From an uncultured Opitutaceae bacterium (GTDB lineage: Bacteria > Verrucomicrobiota > Verrucomicrobiia > Opitutales > Opitutaceae): 59,636 bases of DNA. Every line of letters starts with the position of its first letter. Position 1 is the first letter of the stretch. Both the position numbers and the translations under genes were made by a program. Positions 3-15,317 of the stretch are shown piece after piece. Below the pieces are notes generated by a model. The model did no database searches, was not told the DNA's origin, and saw only the letters and a program-made list of their open reading frames with translations. The stretch covers positions 1-59,636 of the forward strand of contig CAIWXW010000096.1 of NCBI GenBank assembly GCA_903916755.1, in the 5' to 3' direction.

Positions 3-902
3 GACATCCCGATGGGCAAGGATATCGAGCAGTGGCGCGATGAAAAGGCGCTGGGCGAGGTCGACCGCTGGATCATCCGCATGGGCATTGGCTATTTTTC
101 GGCGGCCGAGGGGATTGTCGGCGACAACATCCAGCACGTCGTGCGCGAACTGGTCACCGCCCCGGAATTGAAGCTGGTCCTGGGCCGCCATGCCCACGAG
201 GAGAACATCCACGCGGATTCGCTCCTGTACATGATTTCCTCGCTCGGCATCAACCCGCACGAGTGCGAGGCCATGTTCGAGGATGTCCCGACGATCGTGC
301 GCAAGAACGAGTTCGTCACCCGCATCTCCAGCGATCTGCGCCGCGATCTCGACCTGACCAGGCCGGAAAACAAGAAGTTGCTGGCCAAGAACATTTTCGT
401 CTTCGGCCAGTGCATGGAAGGGACCCAGTTCTACGGGCTCTTCGGCATGATCCTGTCCCTCTACCGGCAGAACAAGATCCCCGGCATCGGCCAGATGTTC
501 CGCTACACGCTGCGCGACGAATCGAACCACATCGAGGTCTTCCGCAACCTGTTCATGGACCTGATCGAGGAAAACCGAGAGATCTGGACCTCCGATTTCA
601 AGGAGGAGCTGCGCGCCCTCATGGCGGAGGCCGTCACCCTCGAGAAGGAGTTCATTCGCGACTGCCTGCCCGTCAACGCGGTCGGCCTGCGCCTGGAAGA
701 TTTCCTCACCTATATCGATTACATCGCCGACCGCCGCCTCGAAGGCTGTGGCCTGGCGCCGCTCTCGGGCGGCGTTAAGAATCCATTGCCTTGGCTCGCC
801 GAGATGATGGACATCAAGAAGGAGCAGAACTTCTTCGAAGGCCGGGTCACTGAATACCAAAAAGCCTCCTCCCTTTCGGTCGCGTCTGATGACGAACTTT
901 GA
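3..902 (+). CDS. nrdB: Ribonucleoside-diphosphate reductase beta subunit, class Ic-like (5' end missing)
   Basis: Radical-generating subunit of aerobic ribonucleotide reductase, which makes dNTPs. The reading frame is open from the window edge; the codons D-I-P before the first methionine (base 12) match the interior of the family, so about 55 residues are missing. Counting from that Met, the six metal ligands are visible: E33, E64 and H67 (EENIH), E136, E170 and H173 (DESNH). The residue that is the radical tyrosine in class Ia is Leu71, and ligand 1 is Glu not Asp; both fit the R2c group typified by Chlamydia trachomatis, which uses a Mn/Fe centre. The alignment to the chlamydial protein (from memory) runs without gaps through this region. 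The alpha subunit follows 183 bases downstream on the same strand. Confidence 0.95.
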   Translation, partial: DIPMGKDIEQWRDEKALGEVDRWIIRMGIGYFSAAEGIVGDNIQHVVRELVTAPELKLVLGRHAHEENIHADSLLYMISSLGINPHECEAMFEDVPTIVRKNEFVTRISSDLRRDLDLTRPENKKLLAKNIFVFGQCMEGTQFYGLFGMILSLYRQNKIPGIGQMFRYTLRDESNHIEVFRNLFMDLIEENREIWTSDFKEELRALMAEAVTLEKEFIRDCLPVNAVGLRLEDFLTYIDYIADRRLEGCGLAPLSGGVKNPLPWLAEMMDIKKEQNFFEGRVTEYQKASSLSVASDDEL

Positions 903-1085: not shown

Positions 1086-4000
1086 ATGAGCAATCCCTCT
1101 CTCGCGCACGACCTCGCGCTCAAGCGCGCCGTCCACGCCCCCGTCGAACAGAAGCCCCACTATGCCTGGCGCGACATCCTCGCCAACGAGGAAATCCCGG
1201 TCCCCTCCATCGTCCTGCTGTGCCCGCACGGCGAGGAACGCTTCGCCCTGGGCGAGGTGGCGGACACGCTCGGCAAGGCCCTCACCAATGTCTGCCTCGC
1301 CCGCGGCGAGAAGGAGATCTTCACCGACACGAACCGCGCCTGGGTGACCGGCATCTGCCGCGAGCTCTCCGCGAACCTGGTGAGCCAGGCCCTGGCGCAG
1401 ACGCCCCTCCGCCTAACCCTGAACGCCCTGTATGAGCTGATCGAGAAGACCCTGGTCGACAACAACGCCTATTTCGTCGCCAAGAGCCTGCTCCTCAACC
1501 GCGCCCGCAAGCTCTCGGTCAACCGCGAGTCGGCGGCGCAGACCGCCTTCCGGGTCATCCGCCGCAACAACCAGGTGGTGCCGTGGAACGAGCAGAAGGT
1601 CGAGATCGCCATCCGGAAGACGTTCCTCTCGCTCGAGCGCGACTCCTCGCCGGCCGTGGCGATCACGCATGCGGTAGCCGAGCGGGTCCAGGCCTCCAAG
1701 CAGGCCTTCGTCCACATCGAGGAGATCCAGGACATGGTGCAGGAGGAGCTGATGAAGGCCGGCCATTACAAGGTCGCCGCCGCCTACATCCTGTTCCGCG
1801 CCGACCGGGCCTCCGCCCGCGTCTCCGGCAGCCTCGATCTCCCGGCATTCCCGGTCACGGTCGAGGCGGCGGCGCCGGGCCAGGAAACGATGGTCGTGGT
1901 CAAGAAGGCCGACGGGCAGAACCACTTCTGGGACGGGGCCGACCTGCGCAAGCGGATCGAGTTCGCCCGGATCGACCTGGAACTCTGCCTGACGGCCGAC
2001 CAGATCGAGCAGGAGCTGCGCCGCTCGATCTACGACCAGATATCCCAGAAGGACCTGGATGCCACCATCATCCTCAACTCCAAGACCCTGATCGAGAAGG
2101 ACGCGGACTTCGCGAAATTCGCCGGCCGGATCCAGCTCACCTACATCTACGAGGAGGTCCTGGGCTGGGACATCGTCCGCGACGGCATCGGCAAGCTGAA
2201 GGAATTCCACCAGCGCTCGTTCAAGAAGTACCTGGAGCACGGCGTCGCCATCAAGCGGCTGAACCCGAAGCTCCTCGAGTATGACCTCGTCCGCCTGGCC
2301 GGCGCGCTCGATCCATCCTCCGACCTCGAGTTCGACTTCCTTGGCATCCAAACCCTCTACGACCGGTACCTGATCGTCGACAAGGTCTCCAAGCCGACCC
2401 GCCGGATCGAGACGCCCCAGTTCTTCTGGATGCGCGTGGCGATGGGCCTGTTCCTGGCCGAACCCGAGCAGCGCGAGCCCAAGATCACGGCGCTCTACTC
2501 CCTCTACAAGACCCGCCGGTTCTGCTCGTCGACCCCGACCCTCTTCAACGCGGGCACGCTGCATTCCCAGCTGTCCTCCTGCTACCTCTACTACGTCGAC
2601 GACTCGATCGAGGGCATCTTCCAGCGCGGCATCGCGGAGAACGCCTACCTGGCCAAGTGGGCCGGCGGCCTCGGCGGCTCCTGGACGGCGGTGCGCGGCA
2701 CCGGCGCCTACATTGGCGGCACCAACGGCGAGTCCCAGGGCGTCATCCCGTTCCTCAAGCTGCACAACGACCAGCTGGTGGCGGTGAACCAGGGCGGCAA
2801 GCGCAAGGGTTCCGGCTGCGCCTACCTCGAGACCTGGCATAACGACCTCTATGAATTCCTCGAGCTGCGGAAGAACACCGGCGACGACCGGCGCCGCACG
2901 CACGACATGAACACGGCCAACTGGATCCCCGACCTCTTCATGAAGCGGCTCGAGGCCCGCCAGCCCTGGACCCTCTTCCGCTCGAACCAGACCAAGGATC
3001 TCCACGAGCTCTACGGCAAGAAGTTCGAGGAGCGCTACCTGCACTATGAAAAGCTGGCCGAGCAGGGGAAGATCCACGGCCAGACGGTCGAGGCGATCGA
3101 GCTGTGGAAGAAGATGCTCTCGATGCTGTTCGAGACCGGCCATCCCTGGATCACGTTCAAGGATGCCTGCAACGTCCGCTCGCCCCAGGATCACGTCGGC
3201 GTGATCCACTCGTCCAATCTTTGCTGCATGACGGCTGATCAGCGCGTCGTAACCGCGGAAGGCCTGGTCACGGTGGCCTACCTTTACGAGAAAGCGCGCA
3301 AGCTCGCCCTGGTCGGACCCTCCGGCGAAATCATCGAGACGGCGCCGGGTAACATCGTGGTCGGGCGTTCGGGCCCGGTCTCGGCGGGCCCGATGCTCCT
3401 GCCCCGCCCGAATGCTCCTATCGTAAAAATCCGCACCCAGGAGGGTTATAGTCACAAGGTGACGCCCGACCACAAGGTGTGGGTCGTTGCTCGCGGCTGG
3501 GTCGAGGCCCAGCATTTGCAGGCGGGCGACAAGATTGAAATTCAACAGGCGGAGGGCCTGTGGGGCGACTTGGATGCGGCCGACGAAGCCTTTATTTGTG
3601 GCCTCGTGGCGGGCGACGGCACGTTCCTGCACCACACGAACGGCTCCGTCTCGGTCTGCGTCGACGTCTGGAGCCATGAATTCAGCCTGCTGCCGGAGGT
3701 GGAGCGCACGGTCGCGCGCATCCTCGAATCTGCGGGGGAACGTGCTTATACGACCTCGAGCCTGGAGCCCCTATTTGCGGGCGATCAGTATAAGCGCCGG
3801 TTGTCCTCGGCCCCGCTAGCGCGCGTCCTGGCCCTGCGCGGCTTTAACCGCAGCACCAAGCTGCGGGTTCCCGAGATCGTCTGGAGCGGGACCCGGGCCA
3901 CCGCCGCCGCTTACCTGCGCGGACTGTATGCCGCCGACGCAACGGTGCAGGGCGGCGAAGTCACCACCTGCTCGCTGGCATCGACGAGCCCGTCGTTCTT

Positions 4001-5552
4001 GGAGGAAATCCAGATCCTGCTGGCCAACTTCGGCATCAAGGCCTCCCTGACCAAGATGCGGGAAGCCGGGATGTGCGATCTGCCGGACGGCAAGGGCGGC
4101 AGCCAGGAATACTGGCAGAGCGAACTCTGGCGCCTGATGGTCACCTCGATTCGCGGCTGCCAAATCCTGGAGAGCCTGACGGGAATCGGCCGCCTGCGCG
4201 GCAACGAGAGCTTCCTGCTCAACCTCCAGAAGACCGGCTATACGCAGAAGATGCATGCGACCTTCACAGACCTGGAAGCTCTGCCCAATGAGGACGCCTA
4301 TTGCCTCCAGGTTTTCACCGAGGAGCACTCCTGGACGGTCAATGGCCTGATCACCAAGAACACCGAGATCACGCTGAACACCTCGAAGGAGGAGACGGCG
4401 GTGTGCAACCTGGGCTCGATCATCCTGGACGCCCACCTCCTGCCGGATGGCAGCCTGGACCACAAGAAGCTGCGGGAGACGATCCGGATGGCGGTCCGCG
4501 CCCTGGACAACGTCATCGACATCAACTTCTACCCGACCGAGGCGGCCCGCACCTCCAACCTGCGCCATCGCCCGATCGGCCTGGGCATGATGGGCCTGGC
4601 CAACGCCCTCTACATGAAGGGCGTCGCCTTCGCCTCGACCGAGGCGGTGGAGTTCAACGACGAGGTGATGGAGGCGATCGCGCACTACGCCTACGAGGCC
4701 AGCTCCGACCTCGCGGCCGAGCGCGGCACCTATTCGTCGTACAAGGGCTCGAAGTGGGACCGCGGGCTCCTGCCCCAGGACACGGTCGACCTCCTCGAGT
4801 CCGAGCGCGGCGTGCCGGTCGACGTGCCCCGCGGCGGCAAGATGGACTGGACCGCCCTGCGGGCCAAGATCGCGGCCCAGGGCATGCGCAACAGCAACGT
4901 CCTGGCGATCGCTCCGACCGCCACCATCTCGAACATCACGGCGACCTCGCCCTGCATCGAGCCCACCTACAAGAACCTCTTCGTCAAATCGAACCTCTCG
5001 GGCGAGTTTATCGTCCTCAATCCCTTCATGGTGAAGGATCTCAAGGCCAACGGCCTCTGGGACCAGGACATGATCGACAACCTGAAGTACTTCGACGGCG
5101 AACTGAAGGACATCACCCGCATCCCGGAGGCCCTGAAGGCGCGCTATCTGACGGCCTTCGACATCGACCCGAAGTGGATCGTGGAGGCCGCGGCCCGCCG
5201 CCAGAAGTGGATTGACCAGTCCCAGTCGGTCAACCTGTGGATCAAGACGCCGGATCTGAAGACGCTGAGCCACATGTACCGCCATGCCTGGCACGTGGGA
5301 CTCAAGACGACCTACTACCTCCGCTCGCTCGGCGCCTCGAACATCGAGAAGGCCACGATCGCGGTGAAGAAGGAGACCCGCGGGGCGATCAAGGAGGGCT
5401 CCGACGGCGGCCAGAATTCCGGCGATGCCGGCGGTTCCCACGAGACGATCGTCGCGGCGGTGGAGGGCAAGAAGGTGTACTCGGCCGAGGAGAAGCTCGC
5501 CTGCAGCATCGAGGCGATGCGCAACGGCGAGGCCTGCGAGGCCTGCCAGTGA
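1086..5552 (+). CDS. nrdA: Ribonucleoside-diphosphate reductase alpha subunit with in-frame intein
   Basis: Catalytic subunit of class I ribonucleotide reductase: reduces NDPs to dNDPs using the radical delivered by NrdB. The product is 1488 residues, about 1109 after removal of a 379-residue intein, close to the long chlamydial NrdA. Order: degenerate N-terminal ATP-cone-like segment (about 80-150), a recognisable ATP-cone (about 160-250), the ten-stranded barrel, and a C-terminal tail ending in C-E-A-C for re-reduction. Redox cysteines are C499 (SSCYLYY) and C1107 (CNLGS). The thiyl-radical motif N-L-C-T-E is split by the intein right after C713. The ATG is preferred over a TTG nine codons upstream because the leader is pyrimidine-rich and unlike protein; no clear Shine-Dalgarno precedes either. 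A strong terminator follows. Confidence 0.95.
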   Translation: MSNPSLAHDLALKRAVHAPVEQKPHYAWRDILANEEIPVPSIVLLCPHGEERFALGEVADTLGKALTNVCLARGEKEIFTDTNRAWVTGICRELSANLVSQALAQTPLRLTLNALYELIEKTLVDNNAYFVAKSLLLNRARKLSVNRESAAQTAFRVIRRNNQVVPWNEQKVEIAIRKTFLSLERDSSPAVAITHAVAERVQASKQAFVHIEEIQDMVQEELMKAGHYKVAAAYILFRADRASARVSGSLDLPAFPVTVEAAAPGQETMVVVKKADGQNHFWDGADLRKRIEFARIDLELCLTADQIEQELRRSIYDQISQKDLDATIILNSKTLIEKDADFAKFAGRIQLTYIYEEVLGWDIVRDGIGKLKEFHQRSFKKYLEHGVAIKRLNPKLLEYDLVRLAGALDPSSDLEFDFLGIQTLYDRYLIVDKVSKPTRRIETPQFFWMRVAMGLFLAEPEQREPKITALYSLYKTRRFCSSTPTLFNAGTLHSQLSSCYLYYVDDSIEGIFQRGIAENAYLAKWAGGLGGSWTAVRGTGAYIGGTNGESQGVIPFLKLHNDQLVAVNQGGKRKGSGCAYLETWHNDLYEFLELRKNTGDDRRRTHDMNTANWIPDLFMKRLEARQPWTLFRSNQTKDLHELYGKKFEERYLHYEKLAEQGKIHGQTVEAIELWKKMLSMLFETGHPWITFKDACNVRSPQDHVGVIHSSNLCCMTADQRVVTAEGLVTVAYLYEKARKLALVGPSGEIIETAPGNIVVGRSGPVSAGPMLLPRPNAPIVKIRTQEGYSHKVTPDHKVWVVARGWVEAQHLQAGDKIEIQQAEGLWGDLDAADEAFICGLVAGDGTFLHHTNGSVSVCVDVWSHEFSLLPEVERTVARILESAGERAYTTSSLEPLFAGDQYKRRLSSAPLARVLALRGFNRSTKLRVPEIVWSGTRATAAAYLRGLYAADATVQGGEVTTCSLASTSPSFLEEIQILLANFGIKASLTKMREAGMCDLPDGKGGSQEYWQSELWRLMVTSIRGCQILESLTGIGRLRGNESFLLNLQKTGYTQKMHATFTDLEALPNEDAYCLQVFTEEHSWTVNGLITKNTEITLNTSKEETAVCNLGSIILDAHLLPDGSLDHKKLRETIRMAVRALDNVIDINFYPTEAARTSNLRHRPIGLGMMGLANALYMKGVAFASTEAVEFNDEVMEAIAHYAYEASSDLAAERGTYSSYKGSKWDRGLLPQDTVDLLESERGVPVDVPRGGKMDWTALRAKIAAQGMRNSNVLAIAPTATISNITATSPCIEPTYKNLFVKSNLSGEFIVLNPFMVKDLKANGLWDQDMIDNLKYFDGELKDITRIPEALKARYLTAFDIDPKWIVEAAARRQKWIDQSQSVNLWIKTPDLKTLSHMYRHAWHVGLKTTYYLRSLGASNIEKATIAVKKETRGAIKEGSDGGQNSGDAGGSHETIVAAVEGKKVYSAEEKLACSIEAMRNGEACEACQ
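3225..4361 (+). other. Intein with LAGLIDADG endonuclease domain inside NrdA
   Basis: Self-splicing insert of 379 residues (714-1092 of the precursor). It begins with Cys1 (CMTADQRV) directly after the NrdA catalytic Cys and ends in Asn with Thr at +1, so ligation restores N-L-C-T-E. Splicing blocks visible: block A at the start, block B with its T..H pair (KVTPDHKVW), two LAGLIDADG-like helices (GLVAGDGTF and LRGLYAADA), and blocks F/G (EEHSWTVNGLITKN). The residue before the terminal Asn is Lys instead of the usual His. Base use is less GC-biased in places (for example around 3418-3470) than in the flanking exteins, consistent with acquisition. The acidic residues G-D-G and A-A-D suggest that the endonuclease may still be active, but this is not certain. 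Confidence 0.93.
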
Positions 5553-14012: not shown

Positions 14013-15317
14013 TTGGCCACCCCGAAACAGAGACTCCCGGTTCCGCCGGGACCCGACGCCCCGCTGCGCGGCGGTCCCATCCGGCGCTTCTTCCAATTGG
14101 TCGGGCCCGGGGTCATCACGGGCGCCGCGGATGACGATCCCTCCGGCATCACCACCTATTCGGTGACGGGAGCGCAGTTTGGCACCTCGCTCCTCTGGAC
14201 GGCGGTGGTCACCTGGCCCCTCATGGCGATGGTGCAGATGATGTGCGCGCGGATCGGCATGGTGACCGGCCAGGGGCTGGCCGCGGCGCTGCAGCGGAAG
14301 CTCCCGCGCAGCCTCGTCCTGCTGGCCGCGATTGCGCTCTTCCTGGCCAACACGCTCAACGTGGGCGCTGATTTGGCGGGCATGGCGGATGCGGCGTCCG
14401 ACCTCACCGGCTGGAGCTCCGGCCTCTTCGTCGTGATCTTCGGCGTGGGCATCGCCGCCCTCACGATCCGGATCCCTTACGCGCGAATCGCCGCGATCCT
14501 CAAGTGGCTTGTCCTGGTGCTCTTCGGGTACGGGGTGGCCGCGTTCCTGACCCACCCGGCCTGGGGCTCCGTGCTGCATGACACGTTCTCCCCCTCATGG
14601 CCCCGGTCCCACGAGGCCCGCATGATGCTGGTGGCGCTCCTCGGCACCACCATCAGCCCCTATCTCTTCTTCTGGCAGAGTTCCCAGGAGGTGGAGGAGG
14701 AGAAGGCCGCCGGCCGGCGCGAGCGGGTACAGCGCGTCGGCGCGACCCCGATCGAACTGCGCAACCGGCGGATCGATGTCGGGTTCGGCACCTTCTTTTC
14801 GAACCTGGTCATGTTCTTCATCATCGTGACCTGCGCGATGACCCTGCACCGGTCGGGCCAGACGCAGATCCAGACCTCGCGCGAGGCGGCGGCGGCGCTC
14901 CGGCCCCTGGCGGGCAATCTGGCGACCCTCCTCTACACCGTGGGGATCATCGGGGTCGGCCTGCTCGCGATCCCGACCCTGACGGGCTCCACGGCCTACG
15001 CCTTCGCCGAAACGCTCCGCTGGCGCCAGGGGCTCGATAAGAAGTTTGCCCAGGCGCGGCCGTTCTACGCGGTGGTCATCGCCTCCAGCCTCTGCGGCGT
15101 CCTCCTCAATTTCCTGCACATCAATCCGGTGAAGGCCCTGGTCTGGTCCGCCGTGGTCAACGGCGTGCTGGCTCCGTTCCTGATCATCGGCGTCCTGCTG
15201 GTGGCCTCTGACCGCAAGATCATGAAGGATCAGACCAGTCCGCTCCTGAGCCGGCTCGTGGTGGGGGCCACCGCGATCGTGATGTTCGCGGCCGGCGCCG
15301 GCATCATCTGGGGATAA
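14013..15317 (+). CDS. Nramp-related divalent metal transporter
   Basis: 434 residues with 10-11 membrane helices and the LeuT-like fold of Nramp proteins. Helix 1 carries D-D-D-P-S-G (40-45) instead of the canonical D-P-G-N, and helix 6 carries T-T-I-S-P-Y (212-217) instead of M-P-H, so the thioether ligand that selects transition metals is absent. This resembles Nramp-related branches that move Mg2+ or other hard cations; the substrate here is open. A charged cytoplasmic loop (E-V-E-E-E-K, about 226-231) interrupts the bundle. The start is TTG, the only start codon upstream of helix 1 before the previous stop. Confidence 0.85.
   Translation: MATPKQRLPVPPGPDAPLRGGPIRRFFQLVGPGVITGAADDDPSGITTYSVTGAQFGTSLLWTAVVTWPLMAMVQMMCARIGMVTGQGLAAALQRKLPRSLVLLAAIALFLANTLNVGADLAGMADAASDLTGWSSGLFVVIFGVGIAALTIRIPYARIAAILKWLVLVLFGYGVAAFLTHPAWGSVLHDTFSPSWPRSHEARMMLVALLGTTISPYLFFWQSSQEVEEEKAAGRRERVQRVGATPIELRNRRIDVGFGTFFSNLVMFFIIVTCAMTLHRSGQTQIQTSREAAAALRPLAGNLATLLYTVGIIGVGLLAIPTLTGSTAYAFAETLRWRQGLDKKFAQARPFYAVVIASSLCGVLLNFLHINPVKALVWSAVVNGVLAPFLIIGVLLVASDRKIMKDQTSPLLSRLVVGATAIVMFAAGAGIIWG

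Follow-up and report, generated by a model that had tools for sequence, protein, structure and literature searches.

The window, i.e., the whole 59,636-nucleotide stretch analysed here, belongs to an Opitutaceae-type (Verrucomicrobiota) draft genome (G000; 3.35 Mb, 227 contigs, 93 % complete) and opens with the genes of a class I ribonucleotide reductase (RNR), with all parts of nrdB and nrdA described below located on the forward strand. Positions 3–902 represent the 3' 299 codons of nrdB for the small (β) subunit (Pfam Ribonuc_red_sm, E 5e-53), the 5' end being lost where the contig begins. The missing 62 codons were located on another contig of the draft (C135) with an ATG start at L002:1315; the final 60 bases of C135 are the first 60 bases of the window (60-bp overlap), and joining C135 with the window contig C96 yields a full-length NrdB of 361 amino acids. 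An earlier interpretation made from the letters of the window (the sequence-only reading) had the gene span 12–902, which had to be corrected, since ATG 12 encodes an internal Met of a gene clipped by the window edge. The gene nrdA for the α-subunit follows at 1086–5552 (1,488 codons including an intein, assigned by profile matches) in the order nrdB-nrdA with a gap of 183 bp, and the two genes are predicted to form an operon. Outside this operon, ~8.5 kb from nrdA, a gene for an Nramp-family metal transporter was identified (14013–15317; Pfam E 6e-86), the match of which to the MntH model stays under the model cut-off. A scan with defence models gave no match.

Upstream of nrdB, a palindromic pair resembling NrdR boxes was observed at L002:1150–1200, with ACCACATCCCCTAGTGGT at L002:1180–1197 of contig C135. 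The strict pattern ACCAC-N8-GTGGT, which was derived from these same upstream sequences, is present in 69 of 89 distinct stretches taken from the 300 bp upstream, whereas 20 mononucleotide shuffles gave 0.0 on average, and a looser box pattern was found in 83 of 112 upstream stretches. A further GTGGT stands exactly 14 bp before the strict box in 52 of the 69 cases, the repeats thus being 32 bp apart, as would be expected from NrdR box pairs with 15–16-bp spacers (described in the accessible part of PMC12051234). An alignment of the upstream regions of 68 loci was picked by the box itself and does not represent an independent count. NrdR may bind at the upstream pair.

The predicted NrdA contains an ATP-cone domain (1551–1811, E 3e-21) and a second, weak ATP-cone (~1896–2138, E 0.04); no ATP-cone was found in residues 1–155, although a strongly divergent one might escape detection. 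An intein of 379 amino acids with a LAGLIDADG homing-endonuclease domain (3225–4361) is located between SNLC and TEITLN, its insertion point immediately following the SNLC cysteine, which we take to be the catalytic one by comparison with E. coli C439. Related inteins at the same site occur in 8 of 81 NrdA rows longer than 800 amino acids, the window included (two of the rows, L059 and L248, look like a single contig). Insertions at another position of NrdA were observed in L043/L246, L045 and L066. The NrdA extein comprises 1,109 amino acids. The predicted NrdA passes the cut-off of model PRK07207 (1223 bits, cut-off 965) but misses that of PRK12365, presumably the chlamydial NrdA model (1007 bits, cut-off 1350); the intein may lower both scores. 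As far as the available text of the source goes, the long chlamydial NrdA partner possesses three ATP-cones. Thus, the proposal that the NrdA partner is of the long chlamydial type agrees with its length without the intein, but not with the one clear and one weak cone and the missed PRK12365 cut-off.

Radical site, metal ligands and second sphere of NrdB

The window NrdB shares 42 % identity with C. trachomatis (Ct) NrdB over 290 aligned residues, free of gaps around the radical site, and all metal-ligand and radical-path sites covered agree with the chlamydial protein. At the position of the class Ia radical Tyr (Ct F127), a Leu is encoded (CTC, 222–224; Leu136 in full-length numbering, residue 74 of the 299 in the window part), as supported by alignment and a codon survey. 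The first metal ligand is Glu (GAG, 108–110; Ct E89), where Tyr-type proteins have Asp, and the other ligands are Glu 201–203 (Ct E120), His 210–212 (Ct H123), Glu 417–419 (Ct E193), Glu 519–521 (Ct E227) and His 528–530 (Ct H230). Also matched are the Tyr two residues on from the radical site (TAC, 228–230; Ct Y129), the Tyr of the radical/electron path (504–506; Ct Y222), Ct D226, and the C-terminal Tyr of radical transfer to NrdA (855–857; Ct Y338). The Leu at the radical position, the Glu as first ligand and the retained Tyr two residues on, all noted in the sequence-only reading, were hence confirmed by the alignment.

Across 233 aligned rows, first ligand and radical residue co-vary, Asp going with Tyr (57 rows) and Glu with Leu (144) or Phe (29). 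The Phe and Tyr rows belong to distant types, one Gln/Leu row is a decayed paralog, two rows do not cover the site, and no further pairing occurs; some rows are duplicates, with one genome entering from two collections. No residue other than Leu was detected among site-covering rows of at least 50 % identity. In 138 distinct DNA contexts, chosen by a clade motif that leaves the radical residue unspecified, all six Leu codons are used (CTG 59, CTC 58, CTT 8, TTG 7, CTA 4, TTA 2) and every context encodes Leu. The use of six codons for one residue points to purifying selection on Leu. A sequencing or assembly error at this codon was ruled out, since Leu occurs clade-wide and in six codons. At one Leu-type locus among L001–L111, Gln replaces the third Glu ligand (E193 position), representing either an error or a variant.

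Six second-sphere residues are 100 % fixed in 141 Leu-type rows (a count excluding four divergent paralogs): Gln at Ct I190, Gly at Y189, Thr at I223, Asn at I229, Asp at H125 and Tyr at F84. These are rare or missing in 29 Phe-type rows, while the pocket Phe residues (Ct F197, F201) are retained in Leu-type rows. A second sphere so unlike that of Chlamydia suggests that the cofactor chemistry may differ. The AlphaFold model of the window NrdB part is of modest confidence (mean pLDDT 65.7, pTM 0.70) and has its closest solved structures in C. trachomatis NrdB (TM 0.77–0.79). It is weakest at residues 49–73 of 299 (pLDDT <50), directly beside Leu 74, and therefore lends no support on the geometry of the site.

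Second nrdB copies were observed in some relatives. That at L133:1799–3013 (G417) adjoins a normal Leu-type nrdB and has lost four of six metal ligands (to Gln, Arg, Val and Arg), with Y222 and Y338 also replaced; its product may be a partner subunit that binds no metal, comparable to yeast Rnr4. The adjacent second copies at L134:3203–5029 and L135:2896–4143, from two genomes of one genus, keep all ligands and the Leu, with Asn in place of Y222 and His in place of the Tyr two residues on.

Distribution and phylogeny of Leu-type NrdB

Among the matches listed, 80 named loci (86–93 % identity) were kept, which according to their record titles derive from Opitutaceae, Opitutae and other Verrucomicrobia, except for one Planctomycetaceae (G426) and one Rubrivivax MAG (G427). 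Within the phylum of the window, an NrdB match was obtained in 125 of 387 genomes drawn; 83 genomes besides G000 match at 71 % identity at least (G375 in two fragments), and the sequences read among these carry Leu. The phylum of G426 yielded matches in 40 of 294 genomes, four of which, G426 included, show 77–88 % identity and Leu throughout; the remaining 16 of 20 fetched sequences comprise 10 with Phe and 6 with Tyr. For the phylum of G427 (matches in 125 of 299 genomes), the sole near relative is G427 itself, where the gene sits on a contig of 3,058 bp; among the 25 fetched sequences, the 24 others comprise 23 with Tyr and 1 with Phe; the Leu-type nrdB of G427 probably represents contamination. 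Among plasmid and phage records, the best 40 of 294 and the best 40 of 1,583 are all below 45 % identity, and the 11 fetched sequences comprise 4 with Phe and 7 with Tyr. No relative emerged from one search of viral contigs, for which a single sequence served as the query.

All Leu rows fall on the same side of one branch (support 93) in a quick tree of 87 rows, and form a single clade (bootstrap/SH-aLRT 99/94) in a 90-row tree with the two trait columns masked. The Leu proteins are thus soundly resolved as one clade. It falls outside a mixed group of Phe proteins (Chlamydia, haloarchaea, the NrdB of PDB 6y2n, presumably from Saccharopolyspora erythraea, and others) and Pseudomonas-type Tyr proteins. 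Its neighbour in the 90-row tree is a long-branched Tyr group (95/83, starred and flagged as long branches meeting); when this group is removed, another long-branched Tyr group adjoins the Leu clade (88/59), which itself retains 100/99. In AU tests, a union of Leu with the Phe/Tyr group was not rejected (p 0.39), and p was 0.12 for Leu with Phe and 0.046 for Phe alone. A common origin with the Phe proteins of Chlamydia is neither demonstrated nor rejected by these tests. Excluded from the analysis were frame 0 of L181 (spurious) and L166 (fragment); the 90-row tree and the tree with the Tyr group removed omit the second copy of L133, L171 (long branches) and near-identical rows, and the latter also omits L181 and the L149/L182/L183 group. 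The sequence-only reading took a grouping with Tyr-containing class Ia proteins as evidence against its R2c assignment, and on this point the trees speak cleanly neither for nor against it: the Leu clade is not grouped with Chlamydia, and Tyr groups adjoin it, albeit through branches of low support or doubtful reliability. The deepest branch of the Leu clade is the nrdB of G101 (L136:3986–5158), which shows 50 % identity, has His two residues on from the radical site and adjoins an nrdA-like gene.

Searches with three models revealed a single RNR in G000, with one large subunit found by PF02867 and no match to NRDD or RTPR in this 93 % complete draft. With the same models, a second RNR was likewise not detected in G169 and G040, two single-contig genomes with Leu NrdB; one weak RTPR match of G040 is located within its nrdA. 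Twenty other genomes were searched with PF02867 and NRDD, of which 15 encode a single large subunit and lack an NRDD match; the RTPR model, applied to 8 of these 15, gave 6 RTPR-like matches under the cut-off, and none in G169. Another of the 20, G015, has no PF02867 or NRDD match, yet an RTPR-like one. Among relatives lacking this NrdB, 12 of 15 (G012, G014, G015, G018, G021, G033 and others) possess an RTPR-like class II match under the cut-off, and G029, G391 and G051 have none. A divergent match of this kind is also present in many relatives with the Leu enzyme, which is therefore not their only RNR. The idea of a sole RNR across the whole family was consequently dropped once these class II matches, which PF02867 misses, had appeared; as judged by the three models, sole-RNR status is limited to G169, G040 and, as a draft, G000.

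Class assignment and proposed function

The class Ic features found in the window NrdB are an inert residue in place of Tyr, Glu as first ligand, all six ligands and the C-terminal Tyr. The radical-site Tyr expected for classes Ia and Ib is replaced by Leu, and all six metal ligands are kept, whereas they are replaced in class Ie. C. trachomatis R2c shares with the Leu-type proteins the first and other ligands, Y129, Y222, Y338 and the inertness of the radical-site residue, but differs by Phe instead of Leu, by only 42 % identity, by its second sphere and by falling into a separate clade. Similarly, the Phe-type NrdB of PDB 6y2n and of haloarchaeal plasmids have Glu as first ligand and an inert residue in common with the window protein, but carry Phe and lie outside the Leu clade, 6y2n in a clade that also holds Tyr proteins. 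The full-length Leu relative L034 passes the cut-off of the Pseudomonas-type model PRK07209 (331 vs 309 bits); the NrdB copy on a P. aeruginosa plasmid differs, however, in that its first ligand is Asp and its radical position is occupied by Tyr.

Inert residues at this site are known from several groups. According to the accessible text of PMC3824934, Leu, Ile and Val in R2c proteins were documented by Hogbom 2010, these proteins thereby sharing the Leu substitution with the window NrdB. As far as the available parts of the respective papers describe, the ferritin-like subunit of class O RNR has Phe or Leu at the radical site (PMC9531940) and stops just after the C-terminal Tyr, whereas the window NrdB runs 14 residues further; the NrdAz and NrdAq groups have class Ic-like inert residues (PMC9669993), class Ic and Mn/Fe chemistry are summarised in PMC8463856 and PMC7239806, and a class Ic RNR was reconstructed for the last common chlamydial ancestor (PMC9816063). 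In the literature found, mostly represented by titles and abstract openings, there was no purified or spectroscopically studied Leu-type enzyme, and nothing on this RNR subunit was found for Verrucomicrobia or, by title, for organisms with Opitut- names.

Since the Leu is real and fixed in the whole lineage, the enzyme probably stores oxidising power on its metals, and the likeness to Chlamydia makes Mn(IV)/Fe(III) the most likely centre. On sequence and by analogy, we therefore favour, with reasonable though far from full confidence, a functional class Ic-like RNR whose oxidant is centred on the metals. The gene would encode the β-subunit of a class I RNR operating without the usual tyrosyl radical, in which the six conserved ligands would hold a dinuclear metal centre. 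Oxidation of this centre, presumably by O2, would leave the oxidising equivalent on the metals beside the inert Leu, from where the kept path of Trp/Tyr222/Tyr338 type may carry it to the active-site cysteine of NrdA, the intein of which would have to splice out beforehand. The class proposed in the sequence-only reading would accordingly be right in kind: Leu, Glu, radical path and nearest structures agree with R2c, but the Leu clade is not joined to the Phe group in the trees.

This separate clade and its distinctive polar second sphere (Gln, Thr, Asn) are also consistent with a Tyr-less, metal-centred RNR that arose independently of Chlamydia and uses another cofactor, either Mn2(IV,III) as in class Id or high-valent Fe/Fe. 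Such an enzyme appears rather unlikely; it is equally doubtful that a Verrucomicrobiota-centred Leu lineage lost the Tyr on its own and runs, with its polar second sphere, on a cofactor other than the Mn(IV)/Fe(III) state of Chlamydia. The closest structures are those of an Mn/Fe NrdB, and the position four residues after the first ligand, which we take to be that of Lys71 in class Id, is Gly in 141 of 141 rows. Glu can be the first ligand in class Id as well, with its Mn/Mn centre, but class Id keeps the Tyr that is Leu here (accessible part of PMC6754362). Conservation could also suggest that the radical resides elsewhere, e.g., on the conserved Tyr at the +2 position or on Tyr93 of the full-length protein, the latter being Tyr in 141 of 141 Leu-type and Phe in 29 of 29 Phe-type rows. 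We regard this as improbable, because C. trachomatis (Y129) and the Phe group retain the former Tyr as well, and the available source text describes a metal-based oxidant for C. trachomatis.

An R2lox-type oxidase or a decayed copy in place of an RNR subunit is more improbable by far. R2lox likewise lacks the radical Tyr, as far as its accessible descriptions go, and weak matches to R2lox models were obtained (E 6e-8 and worse). According to these descriptions, however, R2lox also lacks the C-terminal Tyr and carries Ala at Ct F197 and Gly before the first ligand, where the window NrdB has the C-terminal Tyr, Phe and Ala. Moreover, nrdB adjoins nrdA, the three models find no other RNR, and L034 passes two RNR-β cut-offs. 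R2lox identity was ruled out by the three residues, the operon and the genome content.

The favoured class Ic-like reading thus concerns a substitution that is already in print, in a lineage that is little studied and a useful test case. The strict pairing of Asp with Tyr versus Glu with Phe or Leu offers two well-defined sites for exchange experiments. Next to this, the Leu lineage could show whether the preference for Mn or Fe is governed by the second sphere and, with genomes such as G169 and G040 in which it is the sole RNR found by the three models, whether any inert residue is enough or Phe is needed.
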